A model generated the notes under the pieces. The model saw nothing but the letters and a program-made list of their open reading frames with translations, made no database searches and was not told the origin of the DNA. The translations under genes and the position numbers were made by a program. Shown here piece by piece: positions 7,127 to 38,598 of a DNA stretch of 39,147 bases. Every line of letters begins with the position of its first letter. The first letter of the stretch is position 1. This DNA is from Martelella mediterranea (GTDB taxonomy: Bacteria; Pseudomonadota; Alphaproteobacteria; Rhizobiales; Rhizobiaceae). The DNA is taken from NCBI RefSeq assembly GCF_004342225.1, contig NZ_SMAR01000035.1, forward strand, positions 1 to 39,147, written 5' to 3'.

Positions 7127-8149
7127 CTACTTTCGCTCCGCCACCGATCCACGCTCGATGACGCGGCAGGCAAGGACCTGTATCTCCGCATCGAGCTGAT
7201 CGTTCTGCAGCCGCGCTTCGAGCCTCTCGGCCCCTTTGAAACCCAGATCGTAATAGGGCAGCGCCGCCGTGGTCAGCTCCGGCTTCAGGGCGAGCGAAAC
7301 GGTCTGGAAATCATCGAATCCGACAATGCTGACATCTTCCGGGATCCGCAATCCGATGGACAATGCCGCAAGATAAACCTGCAACGCCATTTCGTCATTG
7401 CCGCAGATGATTGCGGACGGTCGCTGCGGCAGGCTCAGGACCTCGAGAGCGACGTCAAAAACATAGTTTTTCTCCTGCCCGATCTCGCCGTCCATGCCGA
7501 AGCGCACCTGCAGGTCTTCCTCGGCTATGCCTGCTTCCCGCGCTGTTTCCATGAACGCCCGATAGCGCAATTCGGCGCCGATCAGTCTCGGATTCAGGCG
7601 AATATAGGCCAGCTTGCGATGCCCGCGCCCGATAAGATAGCGTGTCAGGTCACGAGACCCCTGTTCATCGTCCGGCACGATCACATCGGCAATTCTGCCG
7701 CTTTCCGGTCGGCAATTCACCTGCACCGTCGGGATATCCACGTCTCCCGGCGCGGGATCGATCAGGCGGTGGTACATGCTGACATACAGGACGCCGTCGA
7801 TCCGGTGCGACTGGAAGGTTCTCCAGATATCGTGTTCGCGCTCGCGCTCGCCATTGGTGTTGGACAGGAGGAAGGTCTTGCCGTTGGCATTTGCCCAATC
7901 CTGAACACCGCGCACGATATCGCCCGAATAGGGCGTCGTTGACACGAAATCGGTGATGATCCCGATGATGCGGGACCGGTTGGAGCGGATCAGCCGGGCG
8001 GCCATGTTCGGCACATAGCCGAGATCGGCAATGGCTTTTTCAACCTTTTCAAAGGTATCGGGGTTGACGTTGGGCTCGCGGTTGACGACCCGCGACACCG
8101 TCTTGTTGGACACGCCGGCCACGCGGGCGACGTCTTTGATACTCACCAT
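7127..8149 (-). CDS. LacI-family repressor 1
   Basis: The 340-residue protein has the LacI HTH at its N-terminus (SIKDVARVAGVSNKTVSRVV, residues about 3-22), the hinge helix YVPNMAARLIRSNRS and a periplasmic-binding-protein-type effector domain (SRIIGIITDFVSTTPYSGDI, GFDDFQTVSLALKPELTT). The ATG at 8149 has GAAGG about 8 bases upstream; the longer frame back to 8254 would cross the operators. It is divergent from importer module A and almost certainly controls it through the operators at 8206-8254, and probably itself. The same operator pair precedes the GH91 gene. It is a close paralogue of LacI repressor 3 (VSTTP..., VNCxxExxR, VPDDxQGS, GNDEMALQV and GFDDFQ are shared). Confidence 0.92.
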   Translation of the reverse strand: MVSIKDVARVAGVSNKTVSRVVNREPNVNPDTFEKVEKAIADLGYVPNMAARLIRSNRSRIIGIITDFVSTTPYSGDIVRGVQDWANANGKTFLLSNTNGEREREHDIWRTFQSHRIDGVLYVSMYHRLIDPAPGDVDIPTVQVNCRPESGRIADVIVPDDEQGSRDLTRYLIGRGHRKLAYIRLNPRLIGAELRYRAFMETAREAGIAEEDLQVRFGMDGEIGQEKNYVFDVALEVLSLPQRPSAIICGNDEMALQVYLAALSIGLRIPEDVSIVGFDDFQTVSLALKPELTTAALPYYDLGFKGAERLEARLQNDQLDAEIQVLACRVIERGSVAERK

Positions 8150-8205
8150 GTTCGGCCTTCCTGCATAGGTAAGCGACGCTAGTATGCCTTTTTGGAAATA
8201 ACAAC

Positions 8206-8268
8206 ATGACAACGTCGACATTTTTCTTCTGTCGACAATTGACAACGTCGTCATGGGTGAACTAGCAT
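8206..8268 (+). promoter_or_regulatory. Module A promoter with two LacI-type operators
   Basis: Two near-palindromes, TGACAACGTCGACA (8207-8220) and TGACAACGTCGTCA (8240-8253), lie 33 bases apart (three helical turns). The second overlaps a consensus -35 box TTGACA (8239-8244) paired with TAGCAT (8263-8268, 18-base spacer). Binding would therefore block polymerase, and binding at both sites could loop. The pair recurs at 32567-32602 before GH91, 22 bases apart. LacI repressor 1, transcribed divergently from here, is the likely ligand. The half-sites TGAC/GTCA and central ACGT fit the CG-centred operators of the family. Confidence 0.75.
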
Positions 8269-8321
8269 CTTTCCGAAATCCATTGGGGGAGAGAACCCCG
8301 ACATTTTTCAGGGAGGACTAC

Positions 8322-9584
8322 ATGCTTCATTTCCACAGTACCGTCGCCGCTCTGGCGGTGGTCACCGCTGCATCCGCCGCGCAGGCGGAAACCATCAACG
8401 TGCTTGTCGAGAATGGCGGCGAGATGATGCAGAAGGCAATTGCCGAACAGTTCACCGCTTCAACGGGCATCGACGTCAACTTCGTCGTCGTGCCTTATCA
8501 GGGCGTGTTCGACAAACTCTCCGCGGAGATCGCGTCGGGCAACTCGAATTACGATGTCGCGACCATCGATGTCGTCTGGACAGCGAAATTCGCGCCCTAT
8601 GTGGAAGACATTTCCGCCCTCTTCACAGATGACGTGAAATCGGACATGGCCCCCGCCCTGCTGGCGGACGCGCAGTTTGAGGGCCGCTATGTCGGGATGC
8701 CGACCTGGGCCAATGCGGAAATCATTCTTTATCGCAAGGATCTGTTCGAAGATCCCGCGGAACAGGCCGCCTTCGCGGACGAATATGGCTACGATCTCGC
8801 CCCGCCGGCGAACTGGCAGCAGTGGCGCGATATCGCAAAATTCTTCACCCGCGACACCAATGGCGACGGCGAGATTGATATCTGGGGCACCGACGTCATC
8901 GGCGGCACGTCCGAAGAGTGGATGTCGGAAGTCCTGCAGGCCGGTTCACCCGGCGTCATGCTCGATGACGACGGCAATGTAATCGTCGACAACGAAGCGC
9001 ACCGCGTCGCGCTGGAAAACTATATCGCACCGCATTGCATCGATCATTCCGCGCCGGCGAATGTCAATGAAATCAGCTGGGGCGAGGCGCAGAACCTGTT
9101 CTATCAGGGCAAGACGGCGATGATGAAATTCTGGGCCCATGCCTACCGGATGGTGCCGGAGGATTCGGTCGTCTACGGCAAGGTCGGCGCCGCACCGATG
9201 ATGGCAGGCCCGGCCGGGATCGGCGTGGTGCCGGGCCCCTGGTACAACGTGATCCCGTCGACCGCCGCGCACAAGGATGCGGCCCGCCAGTATGTCGCCT
9301 TTGCATTCGAACACAACGCGCTCGGCATCGATTCGCCGCTCGGCCTGGCGGCGGCGAATTCGGCCTATGAGAGCTATGAAGACAAGTCCGGTTACGAGCA
9401 CTTCAAGCCGTTGCTGGAAACACTGGCCGGCCCTGCCACCAGGGGCAGGCCCCTGGACGTCCACTATCAGGAGATGGTCGACGAGGCGTTTCTGCCCGCA
9501 TTGCAGGAAGCGCTGACCTGCGACGCCGATCTGGACGACGTTCTCGCCAATGCCAAAGAGACGCTTGAAGATATCGTCAACTGA
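8322..9584 (+). CDS. Sugar-binding protein of ABC importer A (CUT1)
   Basis: The 420-residue family 1 extracellular solute-binding protein is exported to the periplasm. The N-terminus MLHFHSTVAALAVVTAASAA plus QA is a signal peptide, probably cut before ETINVLVENGG. Typical SBP_bac_1 blocks follow: EQFTASTGIDVNFVVVPY near residues 45-62, YDVATIDVVW, and GKTAMMKFW in the C-terminal half. The ATG at 8322 has GGGAGG six bases upstream; the frame from 8253 would start inside the operator. It is the first gene of module A, with two permeases and an ATPase after it and a hairpin directly downstream. Substrate is not visible in the sequence; the GH32 and fructokinase in the same operon suggest a fructose-containing oligosaccharide. 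Confidence 0.9.
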   Translation: MLHFHSTVAALAVVTAASAAQAETINVLVENGGEMMQKAIAEQFTASTGIDVNFVVVPYQGVFDKLSAEIASGNSNYDVATIDVVWTAKFAPYVEDISALFTDDVKSDMAPALLADAQFEGRYVGMPTWANAEIILYRKDLFEDPAEQAAFADEYGYDLAPPANWQQWRDIAKFFTRDTNGDGEIDIWGTDVIGGTSEEWMSEVLQAGSPGVMLDDDGNVIVDNEAHRVALENYIAPHCIDHSAPANVNEISWGEAQNLFYQGKTAMMKFWAHAYRMVPEDSVVYGKVGAAPMMAGPAGIGVVPGPWYNVIPSTAAHKDAARQYVAFAFEHNALGIDSPLGLAAANSAYESYEDKSGYEHFKPLLETLAGPATRGRPLDVHYQEMVDEAFLPALQEALTCDADLDDVLANAKETLEDIVN

Positions 9585-9595
9585 CGCTTTTGATC

Positions 9596-9617
9596 GGGCG
9601 CGTCCCGCGACGCGCCC
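9596..9617 (+). promoter_or_regulatory. Stem-loop between binding protein A and its permeases
   Basis: GGGCGCG (9596-9602) pairs with CGCGCCC (9611-9617) around an 8-base loop, 12 bases after the stop codon. There is no U-tract. Such hairpins protect the binding-protein mRNA or attenuate downstream reading, giving an excess of binding protein over permease. Confidence 0.55.
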
Positions 9618-9649
9618 TCGCCCCGCAACTTCCGATAGGAGAAGACAGG

Positions 9650-10525
9650 ATGTCCGAGCGGCGTTTCGTTCACATCATGATGGGGCCGGCTGCTCTGTTC
9701 CTGGCGGTCACGGTCGCCTATCCTGTATGCCTGCTCATCTACAATTCGTTCTTCGAGGTCGACCTGATCATGCCCGGCAACCGGGTTTGGGTCGGACTTG
9801 CCAATTATGTCGATGCGCTGACCTCGAGCCGCATTCGCGAAAGCGCCCTGAGAACGCTGCAATACAGCGTGTTCGCCCTGTTCTTCGAATTCGTGTTCGG
9901 CTTCCTCGCCGCCATGCTGTTCAATGCCATCGCCGGCAATTCGCGGTGGCACAGAACGATCTTCGCCCTGCCTCTGATGGTGCCGCCGATCGTCGCCGGC
10001 CTTTTGTGGCGGTTCCTGCTGGCCGGTAATATCGGCATCTTCAATTACTGGCTGGCCGGGCTGGGCATCATTTCGAGGCCTGAAGACATCCAGTGGCTTT
10101 CGAACAAGGATATCGTCATCTATTCGGTCTCGTTCGCGGATATATGGCTGACCACCTCTTTCGTGGCGCTGGTGAGCTATGCCGGACTGACCAATATTCC
10201 GCGGGACCTGATCGAGGCTGCCCGGATCGACGGCGCGAATGCGTTCAAGCGCTTCATCCATGTCACGCTGCCGCTGATGCGGCCCGTCATCGCCGTCATC
10301 GTCATCGTGCGCGGCGTCGATGCGGCCAAGACCTTCGACCTCATCTGGATCCAGACCCAGGGCGGCCCGCAGCACAGTTCCGAGGTCTTCTCGATGAACA
10401 TCTACCAGCGGATGGTTCGCTATGGCGATCTCGGCCAGGCATCGGCCTCTGCCACCCTGTTTCTGATTGCCATGATCGCGCTTGCCGCTGTCGCCTATTG
10501 GAAAATCTGGAGGCCGTCGAAATGA
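9650..10525 (+). CDS. ABC permease A1 (MalF/UgpA type)
   Basis: The 291-residue inner-membrane protein has about six hydrophobic segments. It carries the EAA loop EAARIDGANAFKRFIHVTLP near residue 190, the contact site for the ATPase in binding-protein-dependent importers. It begins MSERRFVHIMMGPAALFLAV at the ATG at 9650, preceded by AGGAGAAGACAGG. The next permease overlaps its stop codon by 4 bases (ATGA). Part of CUT1 importer A. Confidence 0.92.
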   Translation: MSERRFVHIMMGPAALFLAVTVAYPVCLLIYNSFFEVDLIMPGNRVWVGLANYVDALTSSRIRESALRTLQYSVFALFFEFVFGFLAAMLFNAIAGNSRWHRTIFALPLMVPPIVAGLLWRFLLAGNIGIFNYWLAGLGIISRPEDIQWLSNKDIVIYSVSFADIWLTTSFVALVSYAGLTNIPRDLIEAARIDGANAFKRFIHVTLPLMRPVIAVIVIVRGVDAAKTFDLIWIQTQGGPQHSSEVFSMNIYQRMVRYGDLGQASASATLFLIAMIALAAVAYWKIWRPSK

Positions 10526-11358
10526 CAACGCGTCAAAAAGGCGATCTGGGTCGCACATTGATCAATATCGCCGCCCTCGTCCTCGTCCTCTCCTATGCTA
10601 TTCCCTATGTCTATCTGGTGACGACATCGTTCAAGCCGTCCGTCGACGTCCAGCAGATACCGCCGTCGTTTTTCCCGCAAACGCTGTCGCTGGAGAATTT
10701 CCAGTCGGTACTGGCCACGTCCAGCCTGATGTCGGCATTCGGCAATTCCCTTGTCGTCGCTGTTTTGACGACCTTGCTGTCGCTCGCCCTTGCCATTCCC
10801 GCCGCCTATGTCGCGACACAGTACCGGCGGCCGGTAACGGTGATCTTCCTGCTGCTGGCGCTCATTACACGGATGGTCCCGGCTGTCTCGCTCGGCGTTC
10901 CGCTGTTCCTGCTGATGAAATCGCTCGGCCTGCTCGACACGGTCCCCGGCCTTGTGCTGGCGCATACCACCAATGCCGTGCCGCTGGCCTTGCTGTTGAT
11001 GGCGGCTTTCTTTGAAGGCGTTCCGAAGGAACTGGAAGAGGCAGCCCGCATGGATGGCTGCACCCGGTTCCAGGCATTCATGAAGATCATTCTTCCGATC
11101 ATGCGTGGCGGCATCGCCATCACGGCGCTGTTCTCCTTCATCGCCAGCTGGAATGAGTTTCTCTACGCACTGCTCCTGACCTCGGAAAATTCCAAGACGG
11201 CCCCGATCGCAATCGCCGAATACAACTCGGTTTACGGGCTCGCCTGGGGACCCATGGCGGCTGCCGCCGTCCTTTATTCCCTGCCGATCATTCTGGTGAC
11301 GCTGCTCTTGCAGAAACAGATCGTTGGCGGACTGACATTCGGCGCCGTGAAAGGATAA
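10522..11358 (+). CDS. ABC permease A2 (MalG/UgpE type)
   Basis: The 278-residue protein has six predicted membrane helices, the first at about residues 13-33 (LINIAALVLVLSYAIPYVYL). The EAA loop EEAARMDGCTRFQAFMKIIL lies in the second half, and the C-terminus FGAVKG is typical of MalG-type permeases. Its ATG at 10522 overlaps the A1 stop, so translation is coupled. It would form a heterodimer with A1, energised by the ATPase 9 bases downstream. Confidence 0.93.
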   Translation: MTTRQKGDLGRTLINIAALVLVLSYAIPYVYLVTTSFKPSVDVQQIPPSFFPQTLSLENFQSVLATSSLMSAFGNSLVVAVLTTLLSLALAIPAAYVATQYRRPVTVIFLLLALITRMVPAVSLGVPLFLLMKSLGLLDTVPGLVLAHTTNAVPLALLLMAAFFEGVPKELEEAARMDGCTRFQAFMKIILPIMRGGIAITALFSFIASWNEFLYALLLTSENSKTAPIAIAEYNSVYGLAWGPMAAAAVLYSLPIILVTLLLQKQIVGGLTFGAVKG

Positions 11359-11367
11359 CGGATTATC

Positions 11368-12510
11368 ATGGCTAGTATCAGCTTACACAACCTGAACAAG
11401 GTCTATGGCGACCGGTTCCACGCCATTCACGACCTGAGTTTCGATATCGCCGACGGCGAGTTCATGGTCCTTGTCGGCCCCTCCGGTTGCGGCAAGTCGA
11501 CCGCGCTCAGAATGATCGCCGGGCTTGAAAGCATCACCGGCGGCGAACTGCGCATCGGTGAGAGGATCGTCAATGACGTCGATCCCAAGGACAGGGACAT
11601 CGCCATGGTGTTCCAGTCCTACGCGCTCTATCCGCACAAGACGGTCAGGGAGAACATCGCCTTTCCGCTGCTGATGGCGAAGGTCGACAAGGCGGAGACG
11701 GAGCGCCGCGTCGCGGAGGCCGCCCGTATCCTGCAGCTCGAGCCGCATCTGGACCGCAAACCGGGTCATCTTTCGGGCGGCCAGCGGCAGCGCGTCGCCA
11801 TGGGACGCGCGATCGTGCGCAAACCGGCCGCGTTCCTGATGGATGAGCCGCTCTCCAATCTCGACGCAAAACTGCGCGTGCAGATGCGTGCCGAGATCGC
11901 GGCCCTGCAACGCGAACTGAAGGTGACGACCGTCTACGTGACCCACGACCAGATCGAGGCCATGACCATGGGCGACCGCGTCGCCGTGCTCAAGGATGGC
12001 TATCTGCAGCAGGTCGACACGCCGAAAAATCTCTACGACCGACCGGCAAACGTCTTCGTCGGCGCATTCATCGGTTCGCCATCGATGAACCTCTACGAAG
12101 CAACGCTTGACGGCGACAGCCTGACGCTCGGCAACCAGACCCTGGCGCTTTCCGAGAACCTCTGGAAGACCCGCCCGTCGCTTCGCGGCAGCCGGAACCA
12201 CCCGGTGATCGTCGGCATCCGGCCCGAAGACATGGAGGATGCAAGCCTTTCCGGTCTCACCACCACGCTCGATATTCCGGTAACGCTGGTTGAATCGCTC
12301 GGCGCCGAAGTGCTGGTTCACCTGGCGGTCGACGCCCCGTTCGTCGATGCCGGCGACCCGGACGCGATCGTTGCGGAAGGTTCGACCAACCGGGCTGTCG
12401 GCCGGTTCTCGCCGAAGTCGCAGGTCAAAACCGGCGACCGGGCGCGTGTGGCCATCGATACCGAACAGCTCCACTTCTTCGATCCGAAAACACGCGAAAG
12501 TCTCTGGTAG
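11368..12510 (+). CDS. ABC ATPase A (UgpC/MalK family)
   Basis: The 380-residue ATP-binding subunit has Walker A GPSGCGKST (37-45), Q-loop Gln83 in FQSYALYPH, signature LSGGQRQRV (135-143), Walker B FLMDEP with catalytic Glu160 and the H-loop in YVTHDQIEAMTM. The C-terminal ~130 residues form the OB-fold/TOBE regulatory domain of the MalK group (GIRPEDM is visible). It starts MASISLHNLNKVYG at the ATG at 11368. It drives importer A and follows permease A2 after 9 bases. Unlike modules B and D it is followed on the same strand by catabolic genes. Confidence 0.94.
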   Translation: MASISLHNLNKVYGDRFHAIHDLSFDIADGEFMVLVGPSGCGKSTALRMIAGLESITGGELRIGERIVNDVDPKDRDIAMVFQSYALYPHKTVRENIAFPLLMAKVDKAETERRVAEAARILQLEPHLDRKPGHLSGGQRQRVAMGRAIVRKPAAFLMDEPLSNLDAKLRVQMRAEIAALQRELKVTTVYVTHDQIEAMTMGDRVAVLKDGYLQQVDTPKNLYDRPANVFVGAFIGSPSMNLYEATLDGDSLTLGNQTLALSENLWKTRPSLRGSRNHPVIVGIRPEDMEDASLSGLTTTLDIPVTLVESLGAEVLVHLAVDAPFVDAGDPDAIVAEGSTNRAVGRFSPKSQVKTGDRARVAIDTEQLHFFDPKTRESLW

Positions 12511-12582: not shown

Positions 12583-14268
12583 ATGCTCATGCAAACTGAA
12601 ACCTTATCGCTGGAAAATGGCGAACTCCTTGAATTCTGGGCGCGCGGACGAAATCTGACACCTCATCCCTTCCGCATTACGATTGACGGGCAAACAGTCT
12701 ATTCGATTGCATCGCTCGCGCGCTGGTTCGACCACTTCAGCTACAGGCACCGCGAGGCGGCCACCGTGACCGTCGCGTGGGATCCGGAGGAAATCGAGAT
12801 TTCCTTCGCCTACAGTTACCGCCGCGAGACGGTTCTGCGCGACGGCATCACGCTCTGGCAGTTTCACGCCGACCGTATAGAGCGTCACGCCGGCGCGGAG
12901 ATCGACGCCCTTCTGCGCTCGGATCCGACGCGCCCGCAATGCCACTTCTCGCCGGTCGTCAACTGGATGAACGATCCGAACGGGCTCTGCCGGATCGGCG
13001 ACGACTGGCATCTGTTTTACCAGCTCCATCCGACCAATACCGAATGGGGGCCGATGCATTGGGGGCATGCGGTCAGCAAGGACCTGTTTTCCTGGACCCA
13101 TTTGCCGGTTTTCCTGCATCCCGGGCAGAACCTCGAACGGCTTGAGGCAACCGGCGGCGCCTTCTCCGGCACGGCCTTCCGGGATCGCGACGGAAAGCTC
13201 CGGTTTTACTATACCGAGCGCCTGCCCGCCTATGATCTGTTCAGGCACTATCGCGAGATCCAGAAAATCGCCGAACCTTCGGACGATATGGTGGTTGTCG
13301 AAGGGACGCGGGTGGTCATCGAGGAACGACCGGCGGGCGTCGAACACGACTTTCGTGACCCGAAGGTCTGGTGGGACGCGGAGAAAAATGCCTACCGCAT
13401 GGTCCTCGGCGCATCGATCGATGCCGACCCGGCAGTCCTGCTCTACGGATCACCATGCGGCAAGGTATGGGAGTATATTGGTCCCCTCTATCGGGCGCCC
13501 GACCGCTACAAGGCGGAAGGCGCGCGGGCCGTCGAGTGCCCGGACTTCTTCAGGATCGGCGACAAATGGGTGCTGATCATGGGCTTTGTCGGTCACAACG
13601 ACCCGGCGACCGGACGCCACAACCTGCTTTATGCCCTGACCGGAGACTTCGCCGACGACCGCTTCGTTCCCGACGACGATGCGTTCCAGCTGCTCGATTT
13701 CGGAACGGATTTCTACGCGCTGCAAAGTTTTTCGGCGGGCGACCGGCAGGTCGCCTTTGCCTGGCTGTTCAACTGGGAATACCGAAAACCCGCCGGTTCT
13801 CCCTATTCCGGCGAACTGTCGCTGCCGCGCGAACTGACGCTGGACAACCGTAACCGGCTCTGCATGAACCCGGTTACGGAATATGGACAGGTCTGGCCGC
13901 CCGTTCGCCTGTCCGGAAACGACGGGGACTACGCAATCGCGAACGCCCCGTTCGAAATAGCCCTTGAAGGCCTCATCGAAGGAACACGGATCGTTGCCAC
14001 GCAGGATGGCGACATTTCATTCGAAATCAGCGTCGCCCAGAACATGCTTTCGATCACATTGCCCCAGGACGACGGCTCCATTCGCTATGTCGCGCTGGTG
14101 CGCGAGGATGCCGATCTGCGGGTCGTCCACGATGCCGGTATCATCGAAGTCTTCGCCGAAGGCGGTGCGATCTGCGGCACGCGCAGAAACTACCGGAACA
14201 TCACGCCCGACCGGCTGCGGATCGACACACCCGCAACGGCGTTGGTTTGCGAAAGGCGCCGCACATGA
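12583..14268 (+). CDS. Glycoside hydrolase family 32, cytoplasmic beta-fructosidase
   Basis: The 561-residue enzyme has the three GH32 motifs: WMNDPNG (128-134, nucleophile Asp131), FRDP (transition-state stabiliser Asp259) and ECPD (acid/base Glu318). GH32 enzymes remove beta-fructofuranosyl units from sucrose, inulin or levan oligomers. The five-bladed propeller is followed by the usual C-terminal beta-sandwich. Unusually, about 125 residues precede the WMNDPNG motif, which is normally near the start; this N-terminal domain is not recognisable. There is no signal peptide, so it acts inside the cell on imported saccharides. The start is ATG 12583 or 12589, with only a weak ribosome site. Its stop overlaps the kinase start (ATGA). 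The likely job is to split a fructose disaccharide such as inulobiose, levanbiose or sucrose. Confidence 0.92.
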   Translation: MLMQTETLSLENGELLEFWARGRNLTPHPFRITIDGQTVYSIASLARWFDHFSYRHREAATVTVAWDPEEIEISFAYSYRRETVLRDGITLWQFHADRIERHAGAEIDALLRSDPTRPQCHFSPVVNWMNDPNGLCRIGDDWHLFYQLHPTNTEWGPMHWGHAVSKDLFSWTHLPVFLHPGQNLERLEATGGAFSGTAFRDRDGKLRFYYTERLPAYDLFRHYREIQKIAEPSDDMVVVEGTRVVIEERPAGVEHDFRDPKVWWDAEKNAYRMVLGASIDADPAVLLYGSPCGKVWEYIGPLYRAPDRYKAEGARAVECPDFFRIGDKWVLIMGFVGHNDPATGRHNLLYALTGDFADDRFVPDDDAFQLLDFGTDFYALQSFSAGDRQVAFAWLFNWEYRKPAGSPYSGELSLPRELTLDNRNRLCMNPVTEYGQVWPPVRLSGNDGDYAIANAPFEIALEGLIEGTRIVATQDGDISFEISVAQNMLSITLPQDDGSIRYVALVREDADLRVVHDAGIIEVFAEGGAICGTRRNYRNITPDRLRIDTPATALVCERRRT

Positions 14269-16245: not shown

Positions 16246-16301
16246 GAACACGTCCAGAGATGGGTAGAGCGTCTTTTTAGTGAATGTGATGCGGTTTTGG
16301 A

Positions 16302-16352
16302 AGTCAACCGGTTTAGTCAACCGGTTGACAAGATCGATTTTCCGGCTCTAAA
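16302..16352 (+). promoter_or_regulatory. Module B promoter and tandem palindromic operator
   Basis: A perfect 14-base palindrome GTCAACCGGTTGAC (16316-16329) is directly preceded by a degenerate copy GTCAACCGGTTTAG (16302-16315). The right half contains a consensus -35 box TTGACA (16325-16330); a possible -10 is TCTAAA (16347-16352, 16-base spacer). The sites lie between LacI repressor 2 and the first gene of module B, so they are the likely operators. A GGTT/AACC centre with CG in the middle fits LacI-family sites. Confidence 0.7.
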
Positions 16353-16393
16353 TGGTTCTCAAGCAACGCAGGACGCGCTTTAGGGAGCAGGCA

Positions 16394-17824: not shown

Positions 17825-17849
17825 CCGGTCGGCAATTGTGGAGGAACAC

Positions 17850-24127: not shown

Positions 24128-24148
24128 TTCAAGCCTTCTCTCTAAAAT

Positions 24149-24176
24149 CCCGGCCGAACCGCTGTGTCCGGCCGGG
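24149..24176 (-). terminator. Hairpin between GH116 and LacI repressor 3
   Basis: CCCGGCCG (24149-24156) and CGGCCGGG (24169-24176) form an 8-pair stem with a 12-base loop, followed on the minus strand by ATTTTAG. It lies 9 bases after the GH116 stop. The T-run is short, so termination of module C here may be partial, leaving the repressor linked to the operon. Confidence 0.6.
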
Positions 24177-24184
24177 GAACACAT

Positions 24185-31134: not shown

Positions 31135-32228
31135 TGGACGTTACTCTCCTCGGGATCAAAAGTCGCCAGCCGGTTTCCGGCGGCGTCGAAGGCGTGGGCG
31201 GAACGCGCGTCGAAAGTCAGATTGACGATCGTGCCGTCAGGCAGGCTGGCGTCGTCGTCCGCCTTGGCGATGACCGGCTCTCCGCGCTCGGGTTGAATGT
31301 GAAGCAGGCGGTATTCGCCCATGTGCTCTTCGTGCAGGAGCCGGCCGCGAATGAGGGCATTCGGCTCGTCCGTCAGGTTCAGATGTTCGGGCCGAACACC
31401 CAGCGTTCCCTTTCCGGGTGAACCGGAGGTGGCCGGCAGCGTAAGCCCGCCCTCCAGACCCGAAACGGCGAGCCCTTCAGGGCCGGCGGTGAACTCGACA
31501 TCGAAGACGTTCATCTTCGGCGACCCGATAAAGCCGGCAACGAAGAGATTGGCGGGCCGCCGGTAGAGTTCGAGCGGCGCGCCCACCTGCTCGATGCGCC
31601 CGGCGCTCAACACCACGATACGATCGGCAAGCGTCATCGCCTCGATCTGGTCGTGGGTGACGTAGATCATCGTCGCCTGCAGTCGCTTGTGCAGCCGGGC
31701 GACTTCGAGACGCGTCTGTACACGCAGCGCCGCATCGAGGTTGGACAGCGGCTCGTCGAACAGAAAAAGCTTGGGTTCCCGCACAATCGAGCGGCCGATG
31801 GCAACACGTTGCCGCTGGCCGCCCGAAAGGTCTTTGGGAAGCCTGTCGAGATAGTCGCCGATCTCGAGCGCCTCTGCCGCCGATCCAACACGTTCGGCGA
31901 TCTCGGATTTCTTCATCCCCGCCAGCTTCAGGCCGAAGGACATGTTCTTGCGCACATTCATATGCGGATAGAGCGCATAGCTCTGGAATACCATCGCGAT
32001 GCCGCGTTCGACAGGGGACAGCAGGTTGGACACCTGCCCGTCGATCTTCAGTGCGCCCGTCGTAATGGGCTCCAGCCCCGCGATCATGCGCAAAAGGGTG
32101 GACTTGCCGCAGCCGGACGGCCCGACAAAGACGATCAACTCGCCATCGGCGACGGTCAGATTGATGTCGCGCAGCACCTCGAAGGCGCCGTAGCTCTTTC
32201 CGATTTCAGAAAGCTCAAGACTAGCCAA
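31131..32228 (-). CDS. ABC ATPase C (UgpC/MalK family), TTG start
   Basis: The protein has Walker A GPSGCGKST (36-44), LSGGQRQRV signature, FLFDEP Walker B, YVTHDQIEAMTL H-loop and a C-terminal regulatory domain (GVRPEHLNLT). I start it at TTG 32228 (365 residues, reading MASLELSEIGKSYG). A very strong GGAGGAGGAGA site lies 4 bases upstream, and the family begins at this point. The ATG at 32267 would add 13 unrelated residues and run through that ribosome site. It is the first gene of module C, about 70 bases after the predicted promoter. ATPase-first order is unlike modules A and B. Confidence 0.92.
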   Translation of the reverse strand: MASLELSEIGKSYGAFEVLRDINLTVADGELIVFVGPSGCGKSTLLRMIAGLEPITTGALKIDGQVSNLLSPVERGIAMVFQSYALYPHMNVRKNMSFGLKLAGMKKSEIAERVGSAAEALEIGDYLDRLPKDLSGGQRQRVAIGRSIVREPKLFLFDEPLSNLDAALRVQTRLEVARLHKRLQATMIYVTHDQIEAMTLADRIVVLSAGRIEQVGAPLELYRRPANLFVAGFIGSPKMNVFDVEFTAGPEGLAVSGLEGGLTLPATSGSPGKGTLGVRPEHLNLTDEPNALIRGRLLHEEHMGEYRLLHIQPERGEPVIAKADDDASLPDGTIVNLTFDARSAHAFDAAGNRLATFDPEESNVQ

Positions 32229-32265
32229 ATTATCTCCTCCTCCCGAGGCCGCATCACATGGCCTC

Positions 32266-32324
32266 ATGTCGATGACCGTTCGATGTCGACGTCGATTTTA
32301 TGTCGACGTCGACTTAAACGTCAA
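32266..32324 (-). promoter_or_regulatory. Module C promoter with phased GTCGAC-type operators
   Basis: On the minus strand TTGACG (32324-32319) and TAAAAT (32300-32295) form a good promoter with an 18-base spacer. The spacer holds the perfect palindrome GTCGACGTCGAC (32302-32313); a second copy, GTCGACGTCGA (32285-32295), overlaps the -10 and start site. The heptamer ATGTCGA occurs three times at exactly 17-base steps (32266, 32283, 32300). LacI repressor 3 is the likely binder. The core ACGTCG is shared with the TGACAACGTCG operators of module A and GH91. Confidence 0.7.
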
Positions 32325-32565: not shown

Positions 32566-32617
32566 ATGACAACGTCGACAACACTTATTGACAACGTCGT
32601 CATATGATCCTTATGGT
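32566..32617 (+). promoter_or_regulatory. GH91 promoter with the same operator pair as module A
   Basis: TGACAACGTCGACA (32567-32580) and TGACAACGTCGTCA (32589-32602) are base-for-base the same two operators as at 8207-8220 and 8240-8253, here 22 bases apart in place of 33. The second again overlaps a TTGACA -35 box (32588-32593), followed after 18 bases by TATGGT (32612-32617). GH91 should therefore respond to the regulator of module A (LacI repressor 1), possibly also to repressor 3. Confidence 0.78.
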
Positions 32618-32706
32618 TGATCCCGAGCGGGGCGCGCGATCAGGAACGAAATGAAGATCGCTCGCGCAAGCGGGCCTCTGCGGATGACATAGCCTGGAGA
32701 AAACGG

Positions 32707-34098
32707 ATGACGAGCCACACTGTCGGGACCGACCGACCGCAACGCAATATGTCTGGCGAAAACTGCTACGATGTCACGCAATATCCCGGCGGCAACGCCT
32801 ACGAGGATATCGGGGCCGTCATCAACGCGATCATCGCCGACATCAAGCGCCGGCAAAGCGCTGTCGACAGCAATGGCGGCGGAAAGCCCGGAGCCGTGAT
32901 CTATATTCCCCCGGGCGACTATCACCTCGTCACACAGGTCGTCATCGATGTGAGCTTCCTGAAGATCGTCGGTTCGGGACACGGCTTCACATCCTCGAGC
33001 ATCCGGTTCAACACGCCCGCCGACGAACTGGCAAACTGGCATGAAGTCTGGCCGGGCGGCAGCCGTGTGATCGTCGATCTGCCTGAAGGCTCCGCCGCGA
33101 GGGGAGCAGAAGGCGCTGCTTTCCTGATCGGCCGCAGCGGCAATCCGCGCATAAGCTCGGTGGAGTTTGCCGACTTCTGCATCGACGGCCTGCACTTCGT
33201 CGACGACGGTCGGGGCGACGCCGAAAACACCTACAAAAACCGCAAGACGGGGATCCACGTCGCCAGCGCCAACGACTCGTTCCGGATAACCGGCATGGGC
33301 CTCATTTATCTGGAGCACGGTCTCGTCATTCACGATGCGGACGCACTCGCCCTCGACAACAATTTCATCGCGGAATGCGGCAATTGCATCGAACTCAGGG
33401 GCATGGGACAGGCCTCGCGGATCGCGAACAATTTCGTCGGCGCGGGGTATGATGGGCATTCCATCTATGCCGAAAACTATGGCGGCATACTGGTTTCGTC
33501 CAACAATGTGTTCCCCCGCGGCGCGAGCAGCGTCTATTTCTCAGGCGTGGTTCGCTCGTCCATTACCGGCAACAGGTTTCATTCCTTTTATCCCGGAATG
33601 CTGGTTCTCGCCGACAATTGCTGCGAGAATCTGGTTGCCTCGAACCATTTCCTACGTGATCGCGAACCCTGGACGCCGATGCAGAAATACGACAACGGCC
33701 TCGACGATCTCCACGGGTTGCTGCGCATCGAAGGCAGCAACAACTCGCTCGTCGCAAACCACATTTCGGAAACGATCGACAGCCATTACGTCAATCCGCC
33801 CGGGGCCAAGCCGGTGATCATCCATGTGGTTTCAGGCAGCGGAAACTATATCGCCAACAACCATATCGTCGCGACGACGGAAACAGCCGCCGAGGATGAC
33901 GCGCCGAACAGCGCCTGCTTCTCGACACAGGTCGGCGCATTGCTTTCGACCTCCAATCTGGCGGAGCTTGCCGTCACAACGGTGCTGATCCGGAAAGAGG
34001 CGGTACGCAACACCGTCCTCGATTGCGGCAATGACGATCAGGTGGTGCTGGACAGGAAAGAGAATGCATTCCGGGCCACGCCCAAATTCGGAGAATAG
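32707..34098 (+). CDS. GH91 parallel beta-helix enzyme: difructose-anhydride hydrolase or inulin fructotransferase
   Basis: The 463-residue protein matches inulin fructotransferases (EC 4.2.2.17/18) and difructose anhydride III hydrolase. Family blocks are GAVIYIPPGDYHLVTQVVID, HEVWPGGSR, VEFADFCIDG, ASANDSFRITGMGLIYLEHG, FIAECGNCIEL and SITGNRFHSFYPGM; NNF/NNH turns mark the right-handed beta-helix. Asp212 and Glu223, 11 residues apart, correspond to the catalytic Asp/Glu pair reported for the family. I start at ATG 32707 (GGAG 7 bases upstream). There is no signal peptide, whereas fructotransferases that attack inulin are secreted. An intracellular role, opening imported DFA III to inulobiose, is therefore favoured. 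It is monocistronic, with its own promoter carrying module A operators. Confidence 0.9.
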   Translation: MTSHTVGTDRPQRNMSGENCYDVTQYPGGNAYEDIGAVINAIIADIKRRQSAVDSNGGGKPGAVIYIPPGDYHLVTQVVIDVSFLKIVGSGHGFTSSSIRFNTPADELANWHEVWPGGSRVIVDLPEGSAARGAEGAAFLIGRSGNPRISSVEFADFCIDGLHFVDDGRGDAENTYKNRKTGIHVASANDSFRITGMGLIYLEHGLVIHDADALALDNNFIAECGNCIELRGMGQASRIANNFVGAGYDGHSIYAENYGGILVSSNNVFPRGASSVYFSGVVRSSITGNRFHSFYPGMLVLADNCCENLVASNHFLRDREPWTPMQKYDNGLDDLHGLLRIEGSNNSLVANHISETIDSHYVNPPGAKPVIIHVVSGSGNYIANNHIVATTETAAEDDAPNSACFSTQVGALLSTSNLAELAVTTVLIRKEAVRNTVLDCGNDDQVVLDRKENAFRATPKFGE

Positions 34099-34191: not shown

Positions 34192-35412
34192 CTATCCGGC
34201 GACCAGCACGGCGTTGAGATCGACGAGATAACGGTCGGAAAGCGGCAGGCTGGCGGCGCCGAGCGAACGGCCGTTCGGCCCGATCGTGCCCTCGGCAATT
34301 TCGGGTTTCTCGATGCCGGGGGCGTCGGTCCGCTCGAGGATCGCTGCCGTTCTCGCGACGATTTCAGCCCGGACATTGTCCGGTAGCCAGCCATCGATCA
34401 GCACGGTCCCGACATCGACGACGCAGCAGGAGGCGATAATGGCAACGGCCAGGCTTCTGCAGGTCTCGTCCAGCCAGGGCTCCAGCAGGCTGTCTTCGAC
34501 CAGCCAGTCATCCGGCGGCCCCCAAAGGCATTCACTGGATTGTCCGGCCAAGTTCATCGCTCGCTCCAGCAGGCAGAGAGAAGCCGTGTCCGCCAATTGA
34601 CAATATGAGCCATCCGCCTGCGCAATCGGCAGGGAACCGAGGGCTGCCGCATTGCCGGAGCGGCCGGTGTATAGCCGGTTGTCGAGCACAAGGCCGCCGC
34701 CGATGAAATAGCCGATAAAGAAATGCAGGAAATCCGGCGGGCGTTCTCCCTTGCCGAAGGCGAGTTCGGCGCCACAGGCGGCTGAAGCGTCATTTTGCAG
34801 ATAGACCGGCAGCCCGATACTGGCCTCCAGTTCAGCGCGAATGTCGCGGGTGCGCCACGCATCCATCTGTCCGGTCGCAACGCCCGCAATGCGGGCCCAG
34901 TCCCAGATGCGGAAGGGTATGGCGATGCCCATACCGGCCAGTCGCTCCTGCGGAACGGCGGTCCGCATCCGGGCAACCGCGGGCAGGACAAATGCCATCA
35001 TCTCGTCGAGACGCGGATAGTCGTAGACGAGATGGGCGCTGTCCAGAACCTCGCCGATAAAATTGAGAAGAACGATATCGGCCGAGCGGCGACCGATCTT
35101 GAGGCCGAAGAAGAAGGCACCATCGGGAGCCAGCCCCATCGGAACGGAGGGTTGTCCGATGCGGCCGCGCACCGGCTCGCCGCGTTTCAGAAGGCCTTCC
35201 TGCTCCAGGGAGCGCACGATCACCGCGCTTGTCTGGATCGAAAGGCCGGTCCTGCGCGCGATCTCTGCCTTGGCCAGCGGCCCGTTGCGGCGGATCGTGG
35301 ACAGCACCAGCCGCTCATTATGGGCGCGCACACCCGATTGATTGGAGCCTCTTGATGTCGTGAGATCTTTATGTCCCTGACCGTCTCCGGAAAAATGCGT
35401 TGTCACGTTCAA
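34192..35412 (-). CDS. frcR: ROK-family transcriptional repressor, FrcR-like
   Basis: The 406-residue protein has an N-terminal winged HTH (LSTIRRNGPLAKAEIARRTG, then LSIQTSAVIVRSLEQEGLL) and a ROK sugar-sensing domain (GIAIPFRIWDW, QNDASAACGAELAFG, FFIGYFIGGGLVLD). The usual ROK zinc-site CxCGxxGC cluster is not evident. It is divergent from frcBCA, as in the Sinorhizobium meliloti frc locus, so it should repress that operon in the absence of fructose. The start is TTG 35412 or GTG 35406: a GAGGAGG site (35417-35423) lies 4 bases before the TTG and 10 before the GTG. Confidence 0.85.
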   Translation of the reverse strand: MNVTTHFSGDGQGHKDLTTSRGSNQSGVRAHNERLVLSTIRRNGPLAKAEIARRTGLSIQTSAVIVRSLEQEGLLKRGEPVRGRIGQPSVPMGLAPDGAFFFGLKIGRRSADIVLLNFIGEVLDSAHLVYDYPRLDEMMAFVLPAVARMRTAVPQERLAGMGIAIPFRIWDWARIAGVATGQMDAWRTRDIRAELEASIGLPVYLQNDASAACGAELAFGKGERPPDFLHFFIGYFIGGGLVLDNRLYTGRSGNAAALGSLPIAQADGSYCQLADTASLCLLERAMNLAGQSSECLWGPPDDWLVEDSLLEPWLDETCRSLAVAIIASCCVVDVGTVLIDGWLPDNVRAEIVARTAAILERTDAPGIEKPEIAEGTIGPNGRSLGAASLPLSDRYLVDLNAVLVAG

Positions 35413-35593: not shown

Positions 35594-36628
35594 ATGCCAT
35601 TCAACACACAGAGTGCTAAGGCCCTTTATTGCGCGACGGCGCTGGGCATCGCGGTTCTGGCCGGAAACGCGCAGGCAGCCGACACCTCGGCCTGCCTGAT
35701 CACCAAGACGGATACCAATCCCTTCTTCGTCAAGATGAAGGAGGGCGCTGTCGCCAAGGCCAAGGAACTCGGCATCGAGCTGAAGACCTTTGCGGGCAAG
35801 ATCGACGGCGATCACGAAACCCAGGTTCAGGCTGTCGAAACCTGCATTGCCGATGGCGCCAAGGGTATCCTGATCACGCCCTCCGACAGTTCGGCGATCG
35901 TTCCCGTCGTCGAGCAGGCCCGCAATGCCGGCATCCTCGTCATCGCGCTCGATACCTCGCTGGAACCGATCGACGCAGCCGACGCGACCTTCGCCACCGA
36001 CAACTTCAAGGCCGGTGAACTGATTGGGGCCTGGGCTGCCGCAAGGCTTGGTGACGAGGCTGCAAACGCCCGGATCGCCATGCTCGATCTCGGCGTCAGC
36101 CAGCCCTCCGTCGATGTCATGCGCGACCAGGGCTTCCTGCAAGGTTTCGGCATCGATCTGGGCGATCCGGGCCGCTGGGGAGACGAGACCGATCCGCGCA
36201 TCGTCGGCAACGATGTCACGGCGGGCAATGAAGAGGGCGGACAGCGGGCCATGGAAAACCTGCTCGCCAAGGATCCGATGATCAACGTTGTCTACACGAT
36301 CAATGAACCGGCTGCCGCCGGCGCCTATCAGGCGCTGAAATCCATCGGGCGTGAGAACGACGTCATGATCGTCTCTGTCGATGGCGGCTGCCCGGGCGTC
36401 CAGAATGTTGCCGATGGCGTTATCGGCGCCACGTCTCAGCAATATCCGCTGCTGATGGCTTCGAAAGGCATTGAGGCAATCGCTGCGTTCGCTGCCGACG
36501 GAACTAAGCCGATGCTGACCGAGGGCAAGAACTTCTATGATACCGGCGTCACCCTGGTGACCGATCATCCGGTTGACGGCGTAGAGTCGATCTCCGCCGA
36601 AGAGGGCATGAAGCTCTGCTGGGGCTGA
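35594..36628 (+). CDS. frcB: Fructose-binding periplasmic protein FrcB
   Basis: The 344-residue protein belongs to the ribose-binding-type (peripla_BP_4) family of CUT2 importers. It has a signal peptide ([20 protein letters not shown] then VLAGNAQA, cut before [12 protein letters not shown]). Blocks such as [59 protein letters not shown] and [20 protein letters not shown] match rhizobial FrcB, the fructose/mannose/ribose binding protein. AAAGGAGGAGA precedes the ATG. It is the first gene of the frcBCA operon and is followed by a terminator-like hairpin that would keep its mRNA in excess. Confidence 0.92.
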
Positions 36629-36650: not shown

Positions 36651-36682
36651 GGAGGGGGCCGTAAACCGGCCTCCCCTTTTTT
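36651..36682 (+). terminator. Attenuator-like hairpin between frcB and frcC
   Basis: GGCCG (36657-36661) pairs with CGGCC (36667-36671), extended by G-C and G-U pairs from GGAGGG on the left and TCCCCT on the right, then TTTTTT (36677-36682). This is an intrinsic-terminator layout inside an operon. Partial read-through would give more binding protein than permease. Confidence 0.65.
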
Positions 36683-36748
36683 CGACAGCCAGGCAGACGG
36701 GCCGGAGCGTCCGGTTCGCGTGCCTGGAAACATTCGGGAGTGAGAAAC

Positions 36749-37822
36749 ATGCAGGAACCGACGGCACGGCGGGATGACTATGAATCCGCTCTGGCGCAAA
36801 GTCCCGCGAACGTAGCTGAATTCGAGCAGGAGCCAGTGTGGCTGATCGACAGGCTCCAGCATGCCCTGCACAAGACACCGGCGCTGGTGCCGCTGATCGT
36901 GCTCTTGCTGTCGATCGCGGTCTTCGGCGCATTGCTGGGCTCGAAATTCTTCTCGCCTTTCGCACTGACGCTGATCCTGCAGCAGGTTCAGATCATTGGC
37001 ATTGTCGCGGCGGCGCAAAGTCTCGTCATTCTGACGGCGGGCATCGATCTCTCGGTCGGCGCGATCATGGTCCTGAGTTCCGTCATCATGGGACAGTTCA
37101 CATTTCGCTACGGCCTTCCGCCCTCCGTATCCATCGTCTGCGGGCTCGCCTGCGGCGCTGCGGTCGGGTTCATCAACGGCTTTCTGGTTGCCCGTATCAA
37201 GCTGCCACCCTTCATCGTCACGCTCGGCATGTGGCAGATCGCGTTGGCGACCAACTTTCTCTATTCGGCCAACGAGACGATCCGCGCCCAGGACATCGAG
37301 GCTAGGGCGCCGCTGCTACAATTCTTCGGCAACAAGATTTCGCTGGGCGGGGCGGTCTTCACCTATGGTGTGATCTTCATGATCGTGCTGGTGGTGGTAC
37401 TTGCCTATGCCCTGCGCCAGACGGCCTGGGGCCGCCATGTCTATGCCGTCGGCGACGATCCCGAAGCCGCGGAACTTGCCGGCGTCAATGTCAGACGCAC
37501 GCTGATTTCCGTCTATGTCCTCTCCGGCCTGATCTGCGCCTTTGCGGGCTGGGCCCTGATCGGGCGGATCGGCTCGGTCTCGCCGACCTCGGGACAGCTG
37601 AGCAACATCGAATCCATCACCGCCGTGGTGATCGGCGGCATTTCACTCTTTGGCGGGCGCGGCTCGGTGCTCGGCACGCTGTTCGGCGCCCTGATCGTCG
37701 GCGTCTTCACGCTGGGGCTCAGGCTCATGGGCGCGGATGCCCAATGGACCTATCTCCTGATCGGCCTGCTGATCATCGCCGCCGTGGCTCTCGACCAATG
37801 GATCAGAAAGGTATCAATATGA
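36749..37822 (+). CDS. frcC: Fructose ABC permease FrcC
   Basis: The 357-residue CUT2 permease (RbsC type) has a ~45-residue cytoplasmic N-terminus and about ten membrane helices. The block ILTAGIDLSVGAIMVLSSVI (near residue 95) and GYG-type conserved segments such as GDDPEAAELAGVNVRRTLIS and GGISLFGGRGSVLGTLFGAL are visible. The ATG at 36749 has CGGGAG eight bases upstream. The stop overlaps the frcA start (ATGA). It acts with FrcB and FrcA to import fructose. Confidence 0.92.
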   Translation: MQEPTARRDDYESALAQSPANVAEFEQEPVWLIDRLQHALHKTPALVPLIVLLLSIAVFGALLGSKFFSPFALTLILQQVQIIGIVAAAQSLVILTAGIDLSVGAIMVLSSVIMGQFTFRYGLPPSVSIVCGLACGAAVGFINGFLVARIKLPPFIVTLGMWQIALATNFLYSANETIRAQDIEARAPLLQFFGNKISLGGAVFTYGVIFMIVLVVVLAYALRQTAWGRHVYAVGDDPEAAELAGVNVRRTLISVYVLSGLICAFAGWALIGRIGSVSPTSGQLSNIESITAVVIGGISLFGGRGSVLGTLFGALIVGVFTLGLRLMGADAQWTYLLIGLLIIAAVALDQWIRKVSI

Positions 37823-38598
37823 CCGGACCGCTTCTGAAGGCACGCAACCTCGTCAAACGCTACGGCAAGGTGACGGCGCTCGATCACTGCGATTTCGATC
37901 TCATGCCGGGGGAAATCCTGGCGGTGATCGGCGACAATGGCGCAGGCAAGTCGACGCTGATCAAGGCGATTTCCGGCGCCGTGCTGCCGGATTCCGGCGA
38001 GATCCACATGGACGGACGGCGTCTGCATTTCGCCTCGCCCAACGATGCCCGCGAAGCCGGTATCGAGACGGTCTACCAGACACTTGCCATGTCGCCGGCG
38101 CTGTCGATCGCCGACAATATGTTCATGGGTCGCGAATTGCGCAAATCCGGCATCATGGGCAAGGTCTTCCGTCAGCTCGACCGACCGGAAATGGAGCGGA
38201 TCGCCCGCGAAAAGCTGAACGATCTCGGCCTGATGACCATTCAGAACATCAACCAGGCGGTGGAAACCCTTTCGGGTGGGCAGCGGCAGGGCGTGGCAGT
38301 GGCGCGGGCTGCGGCCTTCGGCTCCAAGGTCATCATCCTTGATGAACCGACGGCTGCACTCGGCGTCAAGGAATCGCGCCGGGTGCTGGAGCTCATCCTC
38401 GACGTCAGATCGCGCGGCATTCCGATCATTCTGATCTCGCACAATATGCCGCATGTCTTCGAGGTGGCCGACCGCATCCATGTCCATCGCCTCGGCCGGC
38501 GGCTCTGCGTCATCGATCCGAAGGACCACACGATGTCCGATGCCGTCGCCTTCATGACCGGCGCCAAGGAGCCGCCGGAAGTAGCGATGACCGCCTGA
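37819..38598 (+). CDS. frcA: Fructose ABC ATPase FrcA
   Basis: This 259-residue single-domain ATPase has Walker A GDNGAGKST (38-46), signature LSGGQRQGV (151-159), Walker B VIILDEPTAALG (Glu176) and the H-loop LISHNMPHV. Most ribose-type importers have a fused double ATPase; a single-domain FrcA is characteristic of the rhizobial fructose system. It starts at ATG 37819, overlapping the frcC stop. The frcK kinase gene that follows frcA in S. meliloti is absent; an aroQ remnant follows on the opposite strand. Confidence 0.92.
   Translation: MTGPLLKARNLVKRYGKVTALDHCDFDLMPGEILAVIGDNGAGKSTLIKAISGAVLPDSGEIHMDGRRLHFASPNDAREAGIETVYQTLAMSPALSIADNMFMGRELRKSGIMGKVFRQLDRPEMERIAREKLNDLGLMTIQNINQAVETLSGGQRQGVAVARAAAFGSKVIILDEPTAALGVKESRRVLELILDVRSRGIPIILISHNMPHVFEVADRIHVHRLGRRLCVIDPKDHTMSDAVAFMTGAKEPPEVAMTA

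Follow-up and report, generated by a model that had tools for sequence, protein, structure and literature searches.

A probable accessory locus for scavenging difructose anhydrides in Martelella mediterranea

The window analysed here is the entire contig NZ_SMAR01000035.1 (39,147 bases) of Martelella mediterranea, whose genome comprises 4.30 Mb in 105 contigs. From position 7127 to 38598 it holds importers, glycoside hydrolases (GHs) and regulators that probably form an accessory locus for scavenging several difructose anhydrides (DFAs) and related difructose sugars. Families were called with Pfam profiles, complemented by NCBIfam and PDB-chain comparisons. The Pfam matches comprised three LacI regulators (7127–8254, 15241–16320, and 23099–24184), one ROK protein with a helix-turn-helix (HTH) domain (34192–35412), two DUF2961/GH172, two GH32N, one GH116 and one PfkB. 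Three CUT1 sets, each consisting of a substrate-binding protein (SBP), two BPD_transp_1 permeases and a MalK-type ATPase, and one CUT2 set of Peripla_BP_4, BPD_transp_2 and ABC_tran proteins were also present, and every importer had the binding protein, permease or permeases, and ATPase of its respective families. All members of the inventory given in an earlier sequence-only reading (one GH91, two GH172, two GH32, one GH116, one PfkB, three CUT1 and one CUT2 importers, three LacI and one ROK) were found as open reading frames (ORFs).

The genes were arranged from left to right as module A, module B, module C on the minus strand, the GH91 gene, and module D. Module A comprised LacI_A, a CUT1 importer, GH32a and PfkB; module B comprised LacI_B, GH32b, a CUT1 importer and GH172a; module C comprised MalK_C, GH172b, SBP_C, two permeases, GH116 and LacI_C; and module D comprised the ROK regulator and the CUT2 importer. 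Whole-genome searches found GH172 in two places, both in the window, GH32 in three places, two in the window and the third on contig C1, and GH91 in one place. Only the host's own genome contained GH91 among the 13 genomes of the genus that were searched, and the locus was therefore regarded as accessory. In the order, GH91 was found in four of 397 genomes searched, the host included. Among 72,556 plasmid records, 85 matched the GH91 of the window, 70 of them from Rhizobium, and "NosD domain-containing protein" was a frequent annotation among the matches listed.

The GH91 gene (32617–34098, plus strand, start perhaps at 32707) matched the solved DFA-IIIase 5zks over its full length, with 65% identity over 445 residues (E = 2e-192). 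Its bit scores were 643 against DFA-IIIase, 365 against DFA-III-forming and 273 against other fructotransferase chains, and its Pfam matches were weak, the best being PF18835 at 32.3 bits against a cut-off of 30. The protein retained the C-terminal insert of the DFA-IIIase chains, including Cys387, the residue mutated in 5zl5, and its alignments to fructotransferases stopped at query residues 421–433, where this insert begins. The Blautia enzyme shares ~65% or more identity with characterised DFA-IIIases and 43–49% with DFA-III-forming fructotransferases (PMC11538131). With its 65% identity to 5zks, the GH91 of the window was assigned to the DFA-III hydrolase type.

In module A, LacI_A (7127–8254, minus strand; LacI and Peripla_BP_3), the proposed regulator of module A and GH91, was followed on the plus strand by SBP_A (8253–9584, real start probably 8322; SBP_bac_1), the CUT1 binding protein proposed for DFA III. 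The CUT1 permeases permA1 (9590–10525) and permA2 (10516–11358, within the 10093–11358 frame), both BPD_transp_1, came next, and then the ATPase MalK_A (11368–12510; ABC_tran and OB_MalK). GH32a, of the beta-fructofuranosidase type (12583–14268; GH32N at 238 bits; best PDB match 6num, E = 2e-50), contained the WMNDPNG, RDP and ECPD boxes in its translation, and the PfkB sugar kinase, a probable fructokinase, closed the module (14247–15221).

Modules B and C separated the GH91 gene from the end of GH32a, a distance of 18 kb. For comparison, 71 GH91 loci were collected from genome contigs; three of these contigs belonged to a single strain, and not all flanks reached 10 kb. Homologues of LacI_A, SBP_A, permA1 and permA2, each with at least 60% identity, were found at 40 of the 71 loci, and 39 had GH32a (at least 45% identity) as well. 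The order A, GH91, C, GH32 was found on Rhizobium phaseoli pRphaR620a and at three Sinorhizobium loci, and that in the window was A, GH32a, B, C, GH91; judging from this gene order, GH91 and GH32a have swapped places. The GH91 was assigned to module A because it shares operator-like sites with that module and importer A stands beside GH91 at the 40 loci. Thus, GH91 apparently goes with importer A and GH32a and shares the module A regulon, rather than belonging to the adjoining module.

Two further features of the collected GH91 loci were observed. A second GH91 (44–50%) stood near the one of DFA-IIIase type in six of the 71 loci, namely L020 and L021 (both 1904–3052), L028 (5883–6995), L060 (3320–4438), L063 (8830–10023), and L064 (3269–4387); it is perhaps a DFA-forming fructotransferase, which would place maker and user in one locus. 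Three contigs of Sinorhizobium terangae USDA4894 (L006, L007, and L008) shared one GH91 region, with no difference in identities, reflecting either a repeated locus or an assembly duplication.

Each of modules A, B, and C had its own LacI gene and its own operator-like repeat. Two imperfect palindromes, TGACAACGTCGACA at 8207 and TGACAACGTCGTCA at 8240, formed a pair before module A (8207–8253), and a second pair was found directly before GH91 (32567–32602). Each sequence occurred once at either place, with a spacing of 33 bases in front of module A and of 22 bases in front of GH91. The pattern TGACAACGTCGWCA had four matches in the window against 0.03 expected, exclusively before module A and GH91. 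Sites within two mismatches of TGACAACGTTGTCA were surveyed before SBP_A homologues of at least 60% identity, and they were found upstream of 34 of the 42 homologues, mostly ~22 bases apart (among the 42, L072 and L135 are identical DNA and a single strain supplied three); L023, L026, and L028 had solely other forms of the site. The detached GH91 seems to have taken its regulation with it when it moved.

The repeat of module B was a perfect palindrome, GTCAACCGGTTGAC at 16316, with a partial copy at 16303 (16302–16329). A one-mismatch copy was present upstream of GH32b in L134, a contig of the metagenome-assembled genome H1_MAG_00030, and the site was not found upstream of GH32b in L136, L140, L143, and L085. 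Module C had the operator-like tandem repeats ATGTCGACGTCGAT / ATGTCGACGTCGAC (32283–32315), which appeared as ATGTCGACGTCGAY upstream of MalK_C. Similar sites were found upstream of MalK_C in all six relatives tested in which GH172b adjoined MalK_C, and they were not found upstream of the MalK_C-like genes of L085 and L108, which stood in other contexts; among GH172b-type loci, the survey took in those with a MalK_C homologue at the 50% level, which L087, L090, and L137 do not have. We infer from this arrangement which LacI regulator acts at which site. The sequence-only reading had described one DFA system with four importers; the connection with DFAs was well supported, and the locus looked more like separately regulated modules than a single system.

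Module C was read entirely on the minus strand from MalK_C (31131–32267) through GH172b (29803–31134), SBP_C (28496–29770), the CUT1 binding protein proposed for DFA I or a related difructose, and the CUT1 permeases permC1 (27570–28490) and permC2 (26681–27598) to GH116 and LacI_C (23099–24184), its last gene, which was 43% identical to LacI_A; its importer and regulator genes were called by Pfam. GH172b matched 7v1v (E = 1.7e-175), a reference chain in which all 13 positions looked up agreed with the published residues. It retained E85, K147, Y187, W267, E270, E291, D292, W298, and G299 of alphaFFase1, both catalytic Glu among them, together with the calcium ligands N31 and D33, and N272 was replaced by Asp, as in its relatives. 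The E85 and K147 mutants of alphaFFase1 kept 94–100% activity on an aryl arabinofuranoside and <5% on inulobiose (PMC8605356). E85, K147, and G299 occurred together in 10 of the 45 rows of the GH172 residue table, which consisted of two references and 43 distinct sequences, both window copies included, after one 128-residue fragment had been dropped. The GH172 tree was based on 42 rows, without three Ser-299 sequences, and the program warned of long branches meeting; it placed GH172b in the alphaFFase1 clade with support of 95/98. GH172b was accordingly classified as a predicted DFA I synthase/hydrolase of the alphaFFase1 type. At E 1e-100, it was found in one of 289 genomes across the class, the host's own.

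At E 1e-60 or better, 50 Sinorhizobium plasmid records matched GH172b. On pSymB of Sinorhizobium meliloti 1021, a GH172 (DUF2961) with 37% identity to GH172b was located in a CUT1 cluster and had Cys at the G299 position (L089, 9001–10143).

The GH116 gene (24185–26677, minus strand) had as its nearest solved relative the exo-beta-D-arabinofuranosidase ExoMA2 (8ic6, 45% identity, E = 1.6e-201). It started 3 bases after permC2 and abutted LacI_C, inside the module C operon, and a GH116 with 71% identity occupied the same operon place in L134. That contig also held GH172b (72%), GH32a (48%), LacI_A, SBP_A, two permeases and the GH91 of module A, LacI_B, and a cut-short GH32b. About 3 kb beyond its module C there was an Asn-type (ExoMA1-like) GH172, which weighs against a pure fructose reading. 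L134 backs modules A and C, and module B only as a remnant, since this GH172-like gene is Asn-type and no orthologue of the module B gene, and its GH32b is cut short. The partner of GH116 was an alphaFFase1-type GH172 in both genomes holding a GH116 of the window type. In broader searches, GH116 was found in three of 394 genomes across the family (the host and two at 34–36%) and in one of 299 across the phylum, the host's own.

All four named residues of ExoMA2, E431, H446, R483, and D557 (PMC10509167), were retained in the GH116 of the window; they were invariant in 38 of 38 GH116 rows and cannot tell substrates apart within this set. Columns were then sought in which the window and L134 shared a residue absent from the 36 other sequences, at least 80% of which agreed on another. 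Eight columns (305, 410, 440, 444, 445, 553, 601, and 653) set the two apart. C440G, C444V, T445N, and H553S altered positions conserved in 35, 36, 34, and 29 of the 36 relatives, respectively, and all four positions lay within six residues in sequence of H446 or D557. The remaining four columns lay farther from the named residues in sequence, and one of them, 601, had a non-majority residue in ExoMA2 as well. The two sequences formed their own branch (100/100) inside the ExoMA2 clade (100/99).

The sequence-only reading listed GH116 and offered no explanation for it. The beta-fructosidase reading of GH116 was preferred because beta-D-arabinofuranose is beta-D-fructofuranose without C1. We tentatively suggest, as a plausible reading that falls short of being probable, that the GH116 of the DFA I operon is a beta-D-fructosidase derived from a beta-D-arabinofuranosidase whose pocket was opened for the CH2OH of fructose, much like the Gly-for-Asn change in GH172. 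It would split inulobiose from DFA I, or a beta-fructopyranosyl disaccharide from diheterolevulosan II. Two points speak against this: the eight-column signal comes from no more than a pair of sister sequences, whose branch is long (0.76), and L134 has the Asn-type GH172 ~3 kb away. GH116 is not known as a family that acts on fructose, and a beta-D-fructosidase activity is not named for it in the published sections consulted.

Around the 71 GH91 loci, searched for up to 10 kb on either side, no GH116 of at least 30% identity was found, and five rhizobial GH172b operons (L016, L017, L047, L082, and L091) were without one; both findings would suit a GH116 that is a plain beta-glucosidase or a passenger with no link to the DFA I module. 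This reading is unlikely given the tight fit of the gene between permC2 and LacI_C, kept in L134, and the Arg and His found in place of the His and Asp of the beta-glucosidase TxGH116 (PMC10509167).

GH183 (DUF4185), which accompanies ExoMA2 in a known D-arabinan cluster, had no match in the host genome, the L134 genome, or Muricomes. Of 13 actinobacterial genomes found with GH116, 11 served as positive controls; all 11 gave a match, 10 of them over the cut-off. The remaining one, G1409, had a GH183 match below the cut-off, and its GH116 (47–48%) was the nearest to that of the window outside the metagenome-assembled genome among those collected. The missing GH183 alone therefore proves little, and the GH116 enzymes of the clade of G1409 and the window may have other roles too. 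Muricomes intestini, which has GH91, carried two GH116 genes with an ATP-binding cassette (ABC) permease between them (L139, 200–5889).

In module B, the proposed regulator LacI_B (15241–16320, minus strand) was followed on the plus strand by GH32b (16352–17824), which was similar over its full length to the GH32 enzyme of 6r3r/7znr/8a9y (E = 1.5e-38) and retained the GD, RDP, and ECPD boxes. We take the 6r3r/7znr enzyme to be an endo-levanase of Bacteroides. The CUT1 genes SBP_B (17838–19103), permB1 (19186–20067), and permB2 (20064–20888, matched by Pfam in the 19284–20888 frame), GH172a (20894–21988, ORF listed from 20774; DUF2961 at 305 bits), and the ATPase MalK_B (22014–23084) completed the module. 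In GH172a, the +1-subsite residues E85 and K147 were absent, both positions falling in gaps, and Y187 was replaced by Phe. Gly was found at the G299 position, likewise in its Paenibacillus sister (69–70%; support 100/99). Asn at the equivalent position is reported to block fructose, and this position to decide between fructose and arabinose (PMC10509167). Over the 45 rows, this position was Asn in 14, ExoMA1 included, Gly in 13, Cys in seven, Ser in six, and Ala in five. The Asn-type rows and ExoMA1 formed one clade (100/100) in the 42-row tree, and GH172a fell outside both this clade and that of alphaFFase1. GH172a had neither the Asn of ExoMA1 nor the +1-subsite residues of alphaFFase1. The proposal that both GH91 and GH172 act here on DFAs was supported for GH91 and GH172b, and it was not supported for GH172a.

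The order GH32b-SBP_B-permB1-permB2-GH172a was repeated in the Firmicutes, namely in Paenibacillus sanguinis (L136), Clostridiales 1_7_47_FAA (L140), and Faecalicatena contorta (L143). On pACHL02 of Pseudarthrobacter chlorophenolicus, importer clusters next to each other contained GH172a-like and GH32b-like genes, a CUT2 set was close by, and relatives of GH172a stood beside phosphotransferase system (PTS) genes and a fructokinase (L086) or beside PTS genes (L080). An alpha-D-fructofuranoside that is not DFA I may be the substrate of module B. Such a sugar may be a common nutrient, as is suggested by the occurrence of GH172a-like enzymes in loci of Enterococcus and Liquorilactobacillus and on plasmids of Klebsiella.

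On conjugative plasmids of Klebsiella pneumoniae (L081, 9962–11080; L088, 2962–4080), a GH172a-like enzyme (50%) was encoded directly after a lactose-permease-like transporter. Clostridium sp. Marseille-P2415 (L137-L138) had two GH172a-like genes, one GH172b-type gene, GH91, two GH32, and two PfkB in ~30 kb and is, by its predicted families, a Firmicute counterpart of the multi-module locus.

Module D consisted of the ROK-family regulator (34192–35412, minus strand; ROK and HTH_24) and, on the plus strand, the CUT2 binding protein SBP_D, probably for fructose (35594–36628; Peripla_BP_4), the permease (36740–37822; BPD_transp_2), and the ATPase (37744–38598; ABC_tran). Its cargo is probably fructose, and the importer, to judge from its CUT2 architecture, may correspond to the fructose importer FrcBCA. 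Signal peptides were approximated by a crude hydropathy proxy, the highest 12-residue mean within the first 45 residues. The six hydrolases scored 0.23–1.39 and the four binding proteins 1.68–2.14, which agreed with the earlier remark that the enzymes lack visible signal peptides; the proxy is rough, as the kinase PfkB scored 1.87.

From the gene content, families, residues, gene order, and sites, we infer the substrates, the direction of flux, and the roles of GH116 and the CUT2 importer as follows. The three CUT1 importers would bring in whole disaccharides, cytoplasmic enzymes would open and then split them, and the PfkB kinase would phosphorylate fructose; free fructose would probably be taken up by the CUT2 importer. 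DFA III would enter by importer A and be opened by GH91 to inulobiose, which GH32a would split, with LacI_A governing module A and GH91 via the same sites. DFA I, perhaps also diheterolevulosan II, would enter by importer C and be opened by GH172b to an inulobiose-type disaccharide, from which GH116 and/or GH32a would take off the beta-fructosyl unit. Module B would serve a third alpha-D-fructofuranoside via GH172a and GH32b. Taken together, the modules look like sets for uptake and digestion under separate regulation, which would serve two or more kinds of cyclic difructose sugar and a third related sugar. Systems of the same logic have been published for an importer with GH91 and GH32 (PMC11538131) and for an importer with GH172 and GH32 (PMC8605356).

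Several observations weigh against this interpretation. The equilibrium between inulobiose and DFA I is 1:9 (PMC8605356); it favours the cyclic form, so that net hydrolysis of DFA I needs fast removal of inulobiose. The top NCBIfam match of PfkB was fructokinase at 126.8 bits, against a cut-off of 450. The importer A set was below the 60% level or missing at 31 of the 71 GH91 loci. The module A site was not found at the cut-off before eight of the 42 SBP_A homologues (L027, L029, L034, L037, L038, L062, L072, and L135), and the sole other genome with the GH116 module was among these eight. CUT2 homologues (SBP 69%) stood beside the GH91 operon at one of 71 loci, in Histidinibacterium (L037). 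Among solved chains, GH172a was nearer to the exo-alpha-D-arabinofuranosidase ExoMA1 (E = 3e-74) than to alphaFFase1 (E = 4.5e-43), and module B therefore need not be a DFA module.

A general system for taking up fructans and fructo-oligosaccharides (sucrose and oligomers of the inulin and levan types), in which GH91 and GH172 would play an accessory part or make DFAs instead of using them, would suit the two GH32 genes, one of them like the 6r3r/7znr enzymes, and the reversibility of the GH172b- and GH91-type reactions (PMC8605356, PMC11538131). It is quite unlikely, since none of the six hydrolases looked secreted by the hydropathy proxy, the GH91 scored far closer to DFA-IIIase than to either class of fructotransferase, and importers A and C accompany GH91 and GH172b across genomes. 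Very unlikely is a degradation of D-arabinan or D-arabinofuranosides, in which GH172 and GH116 would remove alpha- and beta-D-arabinofuranosyl ends beside fructan genes that are neighbours by chance: the similarity of GH116 to ExoMA2 with its four residues, that of GH172a to ExoMA1, the alpha-D-arabinofuranosidase activity of alphaFFase1 itself (PMC8605356), and the Asn-type GH172 of L134, the sole relative with the same GH116 operon, are outweighed by the missing GH183 match in the host, L134, and Muricomes, the Gly at position 299 in both window GH172, the alphaFFase1-type operon mate of GH116 in both genomes, and the presence of GH91 and GH32, which do not fit. Action on D-arabinan, which the sequence-only reading had named as a refutation, is thus made unlikely by the GH183 result, the GH91/GH32 partners, and the Gly residues; for GH116 specifically it is likewise unlikely, and less strongly disfavoured than for the locus. 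The scavenging of DFAs and related difructose sugars remains the preferred interpretation of the locus.

The ends of the contig carried other genes. The left end held pieces of IS3-type transposases, a DUF736 gene, a Fic gene, and an antidote/Gp49-type pair. The last was a toxin-antitoxin-like pair of an antidote-type HTH protein (PF21716) and a Gp49-type protein (PF05973) at 170–830. At 5989–6540, left of the locus, there was an IS3-type transposase piece with HTH_21 and an rve match aligned to profile position 74 of 102 at most. The right end showed a partial dehydroquinase match.

DFAs arise in heated sugar and from inulin via microbial fructotransferases. To judge from the relatives collected here, rhizobial plasmids commonly carry genes for DFA use. 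GH116 may have a new activity if the beta-fructosidase reading is true, and three LacI regulators, three kinds of site, and three importers make modules that are open to direct test. Among the entries listed in the literature searches, no title or abstract opening describes such a locus, and no paper on DFA use by rhizobia was found.

Among known systems, the DFA-III cluster of Blautia (PMC11538131) resembles the window in having a DFA-IIIase-type GH91, a GH32, and an ABC importer, with a sugar kinase in some strains and a proposed import-then-open route. The window differs in being alphaproteobacterial, in its detached GH91 with the same sites, and in its GH172, GH116, and further importers. 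In Bifidobacterium dentium, BBDE_2040 (GH172) and BBDE_2039 (GH32) are clustered with an ABC transporter (PMC8605356); an alphaFFase1-type GH172 with the tested residues stands by an importer there as in the window, whereas the window operon includes GH116 and has a DFA III module and one further module as neighbours. The D-arabinan cluster of Microbacterium arabinogalactanolyticum (GH183, ExoMA1, and ExoMA2; PMC10509167) likewise combines GH172 and GH116 exo enzymes without signal peptides with an ABC importer, but the window has no GH183 match, Gly for Asn in GH172, GH91 and GH32 as partners, and changed residues near the GH116 active site.

Further counterparts were the region of R. phaseoli pRphaR620a (NZ_CP013543, L082), where GH32, module C, GH91, and module A lie side by side, and the Sinorhizobium loci L016, L017, and L047, which all hold GH91, importers A and C, GH172b, GH32, and two LacI genes in one region, as in the window. 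The association of GH91, GH172b, and importers thus recurs in other Rhizobiales, where the sequence-only reading had proposed to look for it; the pairing of GH91 with GH172b is not confined to this locus, and the searches made found no description of it in print. The stretches examined in these relatives had no GH116 and no module B, and their GH91 came after MalK_A and their GH32 beside MalK_C, the reverse of the window. Already known, then, are GH91 or GH172 with GH32 and an importer, both in print, and alphaproteobacterial regions with GH91 and GH172 in public genomes; new here are the three-module layout, the presence of GH116 within the DFA I operon, module B, and a GH91 that stands apart and has a separate copy of the sites.

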